Positions 2,349 through 5,159 of a stretch of DNA of 32,821 bases are shown here, one piece after another (the first letter of the stretch is position 1; each line of letters starts with the position of its first letter). A model generated the notes under the pieces. That model worked only from the letters and a program-made list of their open reading frames with translations, was not told the DNA's origin and ran no database searches. The position numbers and the translations under genes are program-made. This DNA comes from an uncultured Clostridia bacterium (GTDB taxonomy: Bacteria; Bacillota; Clostridia; Oscillospirales; Oscillospiraceae): the NCBI GenBank assembly GCA_946061515.1, contig CAMGRL010000021.1:1-32821 (forward strand). Reading direction: 5' to 3'.

Positions 2349-2376
2349 AAAAAAGCACGCCGAAGCGTGCTTTTTT
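2349..2376 (-). terminator. Bidirectional terminator overlapping the stop of the first CapA-like gene
   Basis: AAAAAAGCACGC-CGAA-GCGTGCTTTTTT is a perfect 12-bp stem with T-tracts on both strands. It overlaps the last base of the minus-strand TGA stop at 2376-2378. Confidence 0.85.
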
Positions 2377-3518
2377 CACGGGTGCGCGTTGTGCCAGGCG
2401 GAGTAATCCGCGTTGCCGTTGGGGCCGTCGAAGCTGCCGTCCAGCTTGCTGATGACCCGGTTATACTCCTCCGTACCCTCCTCGTAGGGCGTGGGCCGGT
2501 AGTCGTTGGACTCCTTGGCCTGGCTGACACAGCAGGGGATAACGGTGATGCCGTCGTTGGTGACGCTGCCGTCCAAATCCCGCTTCAGCGTCACCTGCAC
2601 AATGGCGGTGTCCCAGTCGGAGGGGTTGGTGTTGCCGCCGAAGCTCCAGTTGCCCATGCTGTAAAGGATGACGCCGCCGTTATACTCCTCGATGGGCTGG
2701 AGACAGTGGGGGTGGCTGCCGTAGACCATATCCGCGCCCGCGTCGATACAGGCGTGGGCCAGGTCGATCTGGTACTGCTCCGGCTGGACGTGCAGCTCAA
2801 TACCCCAGTGGAAGGCGCAGATGATGTAATCCGCCCCATCGTTTTTCAGCTGCTCAATGGCCGCAAGGCACTTATCGGTATCCGGGGTGTAGTTGTTGAA
2901 CGCGCAGTAGATGCCCAGCTTCAGGCCGTTGGGCGTGGTGACGATCTGGGCCTGGTCCTCCTTGCCGTAGGGAATATTCACGGCCTCCAGCGCGGCGTAT
3001 GTATCCTCCGTGCCGGTGGTGCCGAAATCCATGCTGTGGTTGTTGGCGGTGGTCACAAAGTCCACGCCGCCCTGGACCAGAATATTGGCCCATTCCGTGG
3101 GCGCGCGGAAAAAGAAGGTCTGGTTGGACCAAAGGGCCTGGTCGGAGAAGGTACACTCCAGATTGCCGATGGTGTATTCGTCGTTTTCAAAATACTGTAC
3201 GGTGTTGGAGAAGGGATAGGCATAATCCCCGTTCATCTTCCGCTCATAATCGGTGGTGTACTGGTGGGAGGCCAGAGTGCAGTCGCCGATATAGGAGATG
3301 GTGAAGTATTCCGGCTCCGGCGTCGGTGTAGGAGTAGGCGTGGGCGTAGGGGTGGGAGTCGGGGTAGGTGTGGGGGCAGGCTCAGCGCTCTCCGCGGGCG
3401 TGGGAGAAGGCTCGGCGGCCGGGCTGTAATTTCCCAGAGACACGCGCAGCATGACCACATAGCCCATGGCGCAGAAGGCGAGAAACAGGCAGATGACACT
3501 GACGATATATTTTTTCAT
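2376..3518 (-). CDS. CapA family protein (PGA_cap metallophosphatase-like), membrane-anchored, copy 1
   Basis: This 380-residue protein begins MKKYIVSVICLFLAFCAMGY, a signal anchor of about 25 residues. A low-complexity Pro/Glu/Ser segment with nine Pro-Thr pairs (about 49-66) follows, a likely wall-spanning stalk. The extracellular domain starts near residue 72 and carries the PGA_cap family motifs in order: GDCTLA (78-83), NLECTFSD, TANNHSMDFG, FHWGIE and YGSHPHCLQ. These resemble the metal ligands of calcineurin-like phosphoesterases. The family is linked to poly-gamma-glutamate capsule handling, but no other capsule gene of that pathway is here, so the substrate is unknown. The ribosome site is TTGAGGTTTG upstream of ATG. 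It is a tandem paralogue of the gene at 3987-5159. Confidence 0.88.
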   Translation of the reverse strand: MKKYIVSVICLFLAFCAMGYVVMLRVSLGNYSPAAEPSPTPAESAEPAPTPTPTPTPTPTPTPTPTPEPEYFTISYIGDCTLASHQYTTDYERKMNGDYAYPFSNTVQYFENDEYTIGNLECTFSDQALWSNQTFFFRAPTEWANILVQGGVDFVTTANNHSMDFGTTGTEDTYAALEAVNIPYGKEDQAQIVTTPNGLKLGIYCAFNNYTPDTDKCLAAIEQLKNDGADYIICAFHWGIELHVQPEQYQIDLAHACIDAGADMVYGSHPHCLQPIEEYNGGVILYSMGNWSFGGNTNPSDWDTAIVQVTLKRDLDGSVTNDGITVIPCCVSQAKESNDYRPTPYEEGTEEYNRVISKLDGSFDGPNGNADYSAWHNAHP

Positions 3519-3552
3519 TCTTCAAACCTCAACAGTAACAGACAGTGTTCCA

Positions 3553-3823
3553 TATTATAATGTCTACTGAATAAACCGAAAATCGGTTTATTCACGCGGC
3601 TTATGCCGCGAAATTCCATAAAAACGGCTCTTTTAACCGTTTTTATGGAATTCAGACATTGTTACAATGCGTATTTTCCTTGGCGTGGCGCACCACGTCA
3701 AGGAAAAGTGCAAGGGTTTTGCGCAATTATGCACAAAACCTTTGCACTTGAACAAAGCCAATTGGCCTTGAAAGCCACTGCTTTCAAGGCTTGCGGCTTT
3801 GTTCAGTACGCATTATTATAATG
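3553..3823. mobile_element. Hairpin-rich inserted element flanked by a 10-bp direct repeat
   Basis: TATTATAATG occurs at 3553-3562 and again at 3814-3823, as expected for a target duplication. The ends are inverted repeats: AATGTCTACTGAATAAACC (3559-3577) against AATGCGTACTGAACAAAGCC read on the other strand from 3814. Inside are long hairpins: 3568-3594 (12-bp stem), 3595-3610 (CGCGGC/GCCGCG), 3612-3652 (16-bp stem), 3674-3707 (15-bp stem), 3708-3747 (18-bp stem) and 3749-3805 (two stacked stems). They form two cloverleaf-like modules closed by AATGTCT/AGACATT and AATGCGTA/TACGCATT. No protein is encoded. It looks like a non-autonomous mobile element. Confidence 0.7.
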
Positions 3824-3843
3824 AAGTTTATCGTATAAAGCAA
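3815..3843 (-). promoter_or_regulatory. Probable ancestral promoter of CapA-like copy 1, displaced by the inserted element
   Basis: On the minus strand TTGCTT (3843-3838), a 17-nt spacer and TATAAT (3820-3815) form a promoter that closely resembles the one of copy 2 (TTGCAT-N17-TACAAT). The duplicated TATAAT on the gene-proximal side (3559-3554) lacks a convincing -35, but lies exactly 35 nt from the ATG, the same distance as in copy 2. Confidence 0.5.
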
Positions 3844-3986: not shown

Positions 3987-5159
3987 TTATCCTCTTTGAT
4001 ACCAGGAGCTGTAATCCACGCTGATATCGCCGCCCTCGTAGCTGCCGTTGAGCTTGGAGATGACCCGCTCATATTCCGCGCTGCCCTCCTCGTAGGGGGT
4101 GGGCTTATAGTCGTTGTAGGCGTATTTCTGGGCGTCGTTGGGGTCAGGCTCCTTGCTGCTGACCCGGCAGGGGATGACGGTGATGCCGTCGTTGGAAATG
4201 CTGCCGTCGGCGTCCCGGCGCAGGGTGATTTGGACGATGGCAGTGTCCGGATCTCTGGGCCTGTCGCTGCCGCCGAAGCTCCAGTTGCCCATGCCGTAAA
4301 GGATCACACTGTCCTTATACTCCTCAATGGGCTGGAGACAGTGGGCGTGGCTGCCGTAGACCAGGTCAGCCCCCGCGTCCACACAGGCGTGGGCCAGGTC
4401 GATCTGCTCCTGCTTGGGGGTGTAGACCACCTCGTCCTTTCCCCAGTGGAACATACAGATGATATAGTCTGCGCCGTCATTTTTCATCTGCGCAATGGCT
4501 TTTGCGGCTTTGCCCGCATCGGGGTAGAAATCGTTGTAGGCGGTGTAGATGCCGAACTTGATGCCGTTTTTGCTTTCAACGATCTGGGCCTGATCCTCAA
4601 TGCCATAGGGCAGGCCCACGGCATCAAGGGAGGCGCAGGTCTCGTCCACGCCCACCTGGAAGAAATCGTAACTGTGGTTGTTGGTGGTGGTCACAAAGTC
4701 CACACCGCCCTGGGTCAGGATATTGGCGTAATCGCTGCCGGCAAGAAAATAGAACATGGCGACAGTGTAGTCATAGGTCAGCTTGCGGTCAGAAAAGGTA
4801 CACTCCAGATTGGCTATGGTAAACTCGTCGTTTTCAAAGTACTGCACGGTGTTGGCAAAAGGGTAGGAAAAATCTCCGTTCACTTTGTTGACAAAGTCAG
4901 CGGAGTTGGGGCGGGGGGCCAGGGTACAGTCGCCGATGGCGGAAAGAGTGAAATATTCCGGCTCGGGCAGCGGCTCCGGCGTTACCTCCACGGAGGTTTC
5001 CACAGGTTCTGCGTCCTGAGAGGGCTGAACATCCTCCGCTGCGGGCTGGTTGGCAATATTCACCGCGTCCACATTCAGAGACATCCGCTGCAGCACAATA
5101 TAAAACATTGCGCAAAACAACAGCAGCGCACAGAGCAGGCACAAAAGATATTTTTTCAT
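3987..5159 (-). CDS. CapA family protein (PGA_cap metallophosphatase-like), membrane-anchored, copy 2
   Basis: The 390-residue protein begins MKKYLLCLLCALLLFCAMFY, a signal anchor. The ATG at 5159 is chosen over one 27 bases upstream because it matches copy 1 and has the same TGAGGTTTG ribosome site before it. The linker is acidic and Pro/Glu/Val-rich rather than Pro-Thr repeats. The domain then shows GDCTLA, NLECTFSD, TTNNHSYDF, MFHWGKDE and YGSHAHCLQ, all at positions equivalent to copy 1, so the metallophosphatase-like site is conserved. The two genes are similar almost throughout (for example QYFENDE and YKPTPYEEGS against YRPTPYEEGT), indicating tandem duplication. Each has its own promoter and terminator. 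The location should be extracytoplasmic; the substrate is unknown. Confidence 0.88.
   Translation of the reverse strand: MKKYLLCLLCALLLFCAMFYIVLQRMSLNVDAVNIANQPAAEDVQPSQDAEPVETSVEVTPEPLPEPEYFTLSAIGDCTLAPRPNSADFVNKVNGDFSYPFANTVQYFENDEFTIANLECTFSDRKLTYDYTVAMFYFLAGSDYANILTQGGVDFVTTTNNHSYDFFQVGVDETCASLDAVGLPYGIEDQAQIVESKNGIKFGIYTAYNDFYPDAGKAAKAIAQMKNDGADYIICMFHWGKDEVVYTPKQEQIDLAHACVDAGADLVYGSHAHCLQPIEEYKDSVILYGMGNWSFGGSDRPRDPDTAIVQITLRRDADGSISNDGITVIPCRVSSKEPDPNDAQKYAYNDYKPTPYEEGSAEYERVISKLNGSYEGGDISVDYSSWYQRG

Follow-up and report, generated by a model that had tools for sequence, protein, structure and literature searches.

Upstream of a capA-like gene in an uncultured Clostridia bacterium lies a hairpin-rich stretch of DNA that carries the same 10-bp sequence, TATTATAATG, on both of its sides (3553-3562 and 3814-3823 of the window, i.e. 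of the whole 32,821 nt analysed here), with a -10-like box in each copy. This raises the question whether an element has entered the promoter of the gene, what kind of element it is, and what has become of the promoter. An initial annotation made from the letters alone had pointed out the repeat and suggested an insertion into the -10 box with duplication of that box, leaving the element family unnamed.

The insertion site in the capA-like promoter

The capA-like gene concerned (2376-3518, minus strand) encodes a PGA_cap domain (Pfam PF09587, E = 2e-54), as does a paralogue whose promoter lacks the element (3987-5159, minus strand; PF09587, E = 1.3e-45). The gene-proximal TATAAT (3559-3554, minus strand) is located 35 nt ahead of the ATG at 3518-3516, and the TACAAT of the paralogue (5200-5195), part of TTGCAT-N17-TACAAT, is likewise located 35 nt ahead of its ATG (5159-5157). 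Outside the element the minus strand reads TTGCTT (3843-3838)-N17-TATAAT (3820-3815), close to the paralogue's promoter, and the letters agree with the initial annotation in all these points. A simple promoter scan did not call TTGCTT-N17-TATAAT because TTGCTT matches only three of the six consensus bases. The window also contained two adjoining matches to Gut-1 RNA (RF01706) in opposite orientation (2166-2348; 86.5 and 50.7 bits, gathering cut-off 50).

Searching 101 genomes of the genus, we found the empty site that the initial annotation had called for in a close relative, G098, which is about 90% identical over the region and lacks the element at this position. Its empty site reads TATTATAGTG (longer stretch GTTCCATATTATAGTG...) and contains a single TATTATA. 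On the minus strand it forms a TTGCTT-N17-TATAAT promoter for the same capA-like gene, with the same -35-like hexamer and spacing as in the window. The spacer between -35 and -10 differs in several bases between the window and G098, and what is conserved is therefore the two hexamers and their distance. From the empty site and from other copies, the layout of 3553-3820 is TATTATA, a 254-bp element (3560-3813), and TATTATA again. Only the first seven of the ten repeated bases are thus a target duplication, with a gene-proximal copy at 3553-3559 and a distal copy at 3814-3820 (both TATAATA on the minus strand), the latter keeping the ancestral -35. The longer repeat is a coincidence, because the element starts with ATG and the host also continues with ATG (GTG in G098); the ATG after the left TATTATA is the element's own start and that after the right one is host DNA. 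The proposal that an element entered and duplicated the -10 box is borne out by G098 and by the other copies found in relatives, whereas the proposed duplication length of 10 bp is to be corrected to 7 bp. At homologous loci the hairpins are not found in place.

For six further copies we joined the flanks, searched them against 102 genomes of the genus and aligned the matches. Five of the six insertions had empty sites in relatives, three of them with clean single 7-mers. The site of G000:C1 holds one TATTATA in G098 (CATTGTA at a more distant empty site, in G043), that of G098:C155 one TATAATA in G012, and that of G012:C26 TATTATA in G098 and ACATTATA in G000. The empty sites of G012:C38 (TATGATA in G000) and G089:C35 (TAAAAT in G040 and G006, gapped) matched less well, and the joined flanks of G098:C71 gave no empty site among the 102 genomes.

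These sites bear on whether the boxes come from the host at all. TATTATA could be a part of the terminal inverted repeats, so that the element, like a Correia element, would have brought the -10-like boxes with it; TATWATAATG is indeed found at the ends of most copies among the matches listed and resembles part of an end. Because TATAATA and TATTATA are reverse complements, direct identity distinguishes a duplication from a terminal repeat. Among 65 full-length rows (61 unique) the flanking 7-mers were identical as direct repeats in 50, one base off in 10 and further apart in 5, but identical as inverted repeats in only 3. TAAAATA, TATACTA, TACAATA, TACCATA and TATGATA also occur as exact direct repeats, and the empty sites hold one copy of the 7-mer, which refutes this reading for the copies with empty sites. 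Overall we consider it highly improbable. The direct repeats and the empty site likewise overturned the assignment of the 10-bp repeat to the inverted repeats of the element.

Structure and distribution of the element

The element carries terminal inverted repeats ATGTCTACTGAATAAA / ATGCGTACTGAACAAA, and the arms at its ends (3548-3575 and 3798-3825, 28 nt) are 79% complementary. No open reading frame of at least 80 aa inside 3560-3813 was present in the ORF list. The minus strand is predicted to fold with -147 kcal/mol, compared to a mean of -68 for 200 dinucleotide shuffles, none of which was as low (z = -17.6). The inverted ends and the six hairpins described in the initial annotation were recovered.

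Fold and covariation divide the element into two modules. Module A (3560-3659) is closed by ATGTC at 3560-3564 pairing with GACAT at 3655-3659 and encloses the hairpins H1 (3568-3579/3583-3594), H2 (3595-3600/3605-3610) and H3 (3612-3627/3637-3652). Module B (3667-3813), closed by ATGCGT at 3667-3672 and ACGCAT at 3808-3813, encloses H4 (3674-3688/3693-3707), H5 (about 3708-3725/3730-3747) and H6, which has an outer (3749-3759/3795-3805) and an inner helix (about 3765-3775/3780-3790). Sequence and alignments place a palindrome-like CATTGTTACAATG between the modules (3657-3669). This centre resembles a third junction, with the arms ...GACAT and ATGCGTA... around seven bases (TGTTACA), and together with the ends it gives the impression of two joined single-module elements. 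Rfam gave no match at the gathering cut-off within the element, the best weak match being tsr25 (32.8 bits, cut-off 63, E = 2e-5).

In MAFFT alignments of copies from the genus, module A (14 copies) had compensatory changes in 12 of its 36 pairs and module B (12 copies) in 16 of 59, and in neither case did any of 500 shuffles score as high. Across the bacterial family, 40 copies of module A showed compensatory changes in 20 of 36 pairs and 103 cells (shuffles 9.0 and 21.3, 0 of 500 as high; slid controls at most 21 cells), in an alignment made to the model and therefore leaning toward it. The compensatory changes show that the paired hairpins are maintained. Selection on an RNA need not be the cause, since quasi-palindrome correction by template switching could keep the pairing and generate compensatory changes without any function. 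Every helix is a local hairpin of the kind that such correction might repair, but the outer stems that close the modules are also kept (86.5% paired cells in A, 95.5% in B), an argument of little weight given how little these stems vary. We regard this explanation as somewhat unlikely while giving it real weight.

The element matched at 14 places in genome G000, two of them full length, and the covariance model of module A had matches in 11 of 102 genomes of the genus. Among 300 genomes drawn from the family it matched 54, in 35 of 106 genera, with some of these matches belonging to a second hairpin family or being weak. The exact 20-mer of the right end was matched by 72 stretches in the named genome collection, from Flavonifractor, Pseudoflavonifractor phocaeensis, Intestinimonas, Galloscillospira and records of uncultured Oscillospiraceae, Ruminococcaceae or Clostridiales. 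Cultured carriers include Flavonifractor sp. An112 and Pseudoflavonifractor phocaeensis An858. Searches of phages, plasmids and viral contigs, one of them with an exact 20-mer, gave no match. The family that the initial annotation could not name is now delimited as a 254-bp two-module element with the ends ATGnsTRCTGAAYAAA, widespread in one bacterial family. It is short and without coding capacity, has these terminal inverted repeats at both ends, shows target duplications and empty sites, and is present in many mobile copies; we class it as a MITE-like family whose targeting is unusual.

Shorter forms also occur. Single ends such as TATAATAATGTCTACTGAA are located directly ahead of a ribosome site at four places (G000:C5:13049, G000:C28:23973, L236 and L255) and keep the outer -10 box without the rest of the element. 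These putative remnants, recognised from their sequence, fit an insertion followed by erosion. At G000:C22:25045 and G098:C85:65021 (L017, L113) the flanks indicate the same insertion, full length in G098 and shortened in G000, which is an example of erosion. In G162, minimal 44-bp versions were found (C8:58297-58340 and C12:124466-124509; L321, L322), in which two left-type ends face each other with 12 bases in between. A second hairpin element of about 230 nt has the same layout, with three hairpins, a central CATTTCAATG and three further structured stretches, but differs in its sequences and in its ends (TATAATGACYAT...). Visual inspection did not delimit its duplication; the element was seen at L139, L149 and L158 (G101), L140, L150 and L157 (G046), and L141 and L159 (G070).

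Target choice and mobilisation

To what extent the family as a whole enters -10 boxes was assessed from two samples. The first comprised 47 copies with identical repeats, each read in the direction that gives TATAATA or TAAAATA and scored for a -35 box with a matrix entered by hand. The best -35 score averaged 3.27 at 16-18 nt upstream, compared to -1.45 at other offsets and -1.20 in the opposite direction (p = 4e-11). Within the next 200 nt, 43 of the 47 copies had a start codon that comes with a Shine-Dalgarno-like stretch and opens a frame of 50 codons or more, while a few copies of the pattern scan lacked a -35 box or a gene start. Some of the 47 insertions are common to sister genomes, and such cases were dropped from a tree of 42 copies.

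Since 40 of these 47 copies came from a pattern fixing TATWATA at the right end, a second sample was picked by the interior of the element only. It consisted of 40 loci selected with the module A model, their flanks being disregarded; 7 of them share the exact upstream flank with the first sample. Both ends were present in 35 loci, and 5 had no recognisable right end. The repeats of the 35 copies were exact over 7 bp in 26, exact over 6 bp in one and not identical in 8. TATAATA accounted for 15 of the 27 exact repeats, TATTATA for 3, TAAAATA and TATACTA for 2 each, and TATCATA, TACAATA, TACCATA, TATGATA and TATAAA for one each. Upstream, the -35 score reached 2.64, compared to -1.07 in the reversed direction (p = 1.4e-4). 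Downstream, 25 of 27 copies had a gene start, while the opposite side had one in 14 of 27. The target logo further showed TT(G) at -23 to -21 ahead of the box and TG directly before it. Taken together, the empty sites, the 7-bp duplications, the -35 signal and the gene starts indicate that the family enters and duplicates -10 boxes. Insertion into a -10 with duplication, leaving a working-looking promoter outside, is thus supported for the copy in the window and for most copies tested elsewhere.

Whether transcription itself guides the insertion is a separate matter. The transposase might be steered by RNA polymerase at promoters and insert into the melted -10 instead of reading TAnnnTA alone, and several of the above observations would agree with this, namely the coincidence of the duplicated 7 bp with the -10 element, the -35 and extended -10 TG visible in the logo, and the downstream gene starts in the second sample. 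We therefore compared the insertions with element-free TATAATA sequences, of which 507 kb of the 72 loci contained 55, with 31 preceding a gene start. Insertion sites were more often followed by a gene start (43 of 47 against 31 of 55, p = 1e-4), and their -35 scores were better than those of all 55 (p = 0.008) but did not differ from those of the 31 pre-gene sites (p = 0.18). The same excess would arise if selection weeded out insertions in genes, and there are copies off promoters, G098:C71 and G012:C38 being located at stop codons. The promoter excess is sufficiently accounted for by a sequence preference combined with the loss of harmful insertions, and we consider steering by polymerase rather unlikely.

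The targets are also relaxed in one lineage, which again speaks against steering. Genome G162 contained 57 element ends with at most one mismatch (27 + 30; none in a reversed control), most of which pair at 250-260 bp. Together with five copies sharing one common model score this suggests recent spread. Among 19 full-length copies fetched from G162, exact repeats were 7 bp long in 7, 6 bp long in 9 and absent in 3. These repeats are TA-rich (TATTTTA, TAATATA, TACATA, TAGATA and others) and rarely TATAATA, and the -35 signal is weaker (0.56 vs -2.14, p = 0.014). The strict TATAATA habit is therefore not universal, and all lineages seem to have in common a requirement for TA-n(2-3)-TA.

In 36 of the 47 copies of the first sample (32 of 42 after removal of shared sites, binomial p = 9e-4) and in 24 of 27 of the second, the upstream half of the element is module A. 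On the tree of 42 copies this orientation changes 8 times, and 98 of 500 shuffles had as few changes or fewer. As the changes are no fewer than expected, the 7-mer comes from the target and is not carried along with the element. This is relevant to a further possibility, that a site-specific (tyrosine) recombinase moves the element and that the 7 bp are a crossover region common to element and target. Judged from the sequence, joined ends would form a 12-7-12 inverted-repeat site around TATAATA. However, orientation and with it the form of the 7-mer are not inherited on the element tree, the target flanks have no arms resembling the element ends, and both 6-bp and 7-bp repeats occur, which makes a recombinase of this type improbable.

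A transposase, or an autonomous relative with the ends of the element, was not found among the matches listed for the stretches searched. Among insertion sequences, repeats of 6-7 bp are a feature of ISDol1 (ISNCY). End pairs more than 450 bp apart in the 72 pattern-scan loci revealed no autonomous element among the matches listed; the lone long candidate, L201, consists of two separate copies. Of the matches listed, twenty single ends in five other genomes, read for 160 nt from one end each, all resembled copies or remnants, and no transposon bounded by such ends was present in the stretches fetched around unpaired ends of G162. In G000:C19 (L053, 1128-1530) an element end is adjoined by a truncated transposase of the IS1182 family (NF033551, E = 5e-41, which is below its cut-off), and a second fragment of this family (E = 9e-20) lies beside an element end in G162:C29 (L306, 320-1040). 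With the C19 fragment as a query, four of five genomes gave matches. The TAAAATA left of this fragment recurs in the G089 relative (L130) and is therefore IS sequence and not a duplication. IS1182 was rejected as the mobilising partner, as its ends (TCAGTCTGTCGA... in L133, GGGGCTGTCTC... in L306) are unlike ATGnsTRCTGAA, and both fragments are taken as IS1182 insertions into or beside copies of the element.

Proposed history of the locus and comparison with known systems

As the most probable account, in which we have considerable confidence, a 254-bp non-autonomous, MITE-like transposon of Oscillospiraceae-type bacteria entered the -10 box of the capA-like gene and copied 7 bp, so that the promoter would be kept and the hairpins would lead the mRNA. 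What is shown of this account is that the element inserts at TATWATA and duplicates its target, that an intact promoter lies outside, that the family is spread over many genera and that pairing in the hairpins is maintained. The element inserted between the cuts of the two strands around TATTATA, thereby duplicating the 7 bp. The gene presumably keeps its promoter because the upstream repeat restores a -10 box at 17 nt from the old -35. This upstream promoter would drive the capA-like gene, with a start falling in the terminal repeat of the element, and from the sequence all six hairpins would become the first ~260 nt of a putative leader. The transposase might be encoded elsewhere, act in trans and prefer TAnnnTA, a pattern that -10 boxes match. 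The promoter-sparing geometry and selection against other sites could then explain where copies survive.

A bolder version is that the structured element uses transcription for its target choice, inserting as sigma-A RNA polymerase opens the -10, duplicating the box and becoming an obligatory hairpin-capped 5' leader, with the hairpins selected for that role. We regard this as doubtful. The mean unpaired probability of the ribosome site is predicted to be 0.62 both with and without the element, and the idea that the leader hides this site was rejected on this basis. As access would be unchanged, any effect would be more likely to concern mRNA stability. Inside the element there was one weak terminator-like match, compared to 0.6 in shuffles.

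Each insertion into a -10 spares a complete promoter outside and would put the element at the start of the message. If these leaders are made, many unrelated mRNAs of gut Oscillospiraceae would have received one and the same six-hairpin cap from a single family. Nature would thereby have provided an experiment on the stability and translation of mRNAs, for which the empty sites in close relatives are ready controls.

Searches of the open-access literature listed no element of such kind, and no bacterial element family that duplicates a -10 box as its target is known to us. Promoter-sparing insertion is well known in eukaryotic elements that settle beside start sites. RUP and BOX of Streptococcus pneumoniae are small interspersed elements, BOX being modular and structured, and their ends and targets differ from those described here. 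Both are named in the excerpted text of PMC10969869, which also describes QMITE2 of Coxiella burnetii, a MITE whose direct repeats measure 7-9 bp and whose inverted repeats measure 23-29 bp, and which is predicted to fold stably. QMITE2 is similar to our element in these three respects but belongs to another host, and -10 boxes are not mentioned in that excerpt (PMC10969869). In the Bacillus cereus group, bcr1 is RNA-structured. It and the further BCR repeats of this group resemble our element in being interspersed and 100-400 bp long, in their features of mobility and in having a short AT motif, TTTAT, at the site (excerpt of PMC6542083). The BCR repeats differ in host group, motif and site size, and the excerpt of PMC6542083 does not mention a -10 preference.

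The Correia repeat enclosed elements (CREE) of Neisseria are short and non-autonomous, with inverted ends and many copies by genes, affect neighbouring promoters and form structured transcripts, according to excerpts of two papers (PMC2649163, PMC10969869). As far as these excerpts go, our element resembles them in being short and non-autonomous, with inverted ends and many copies beside genes. CREE duplicate a 2-bp TA target, compared with 7 bp here, and a comparison of the descriptions showed no sequence relation between the two. They differ in the origin of the promoter: CREE carry promoter sequences of their own, whereas the -10 box of our element is host DNA duplicated on insertion.
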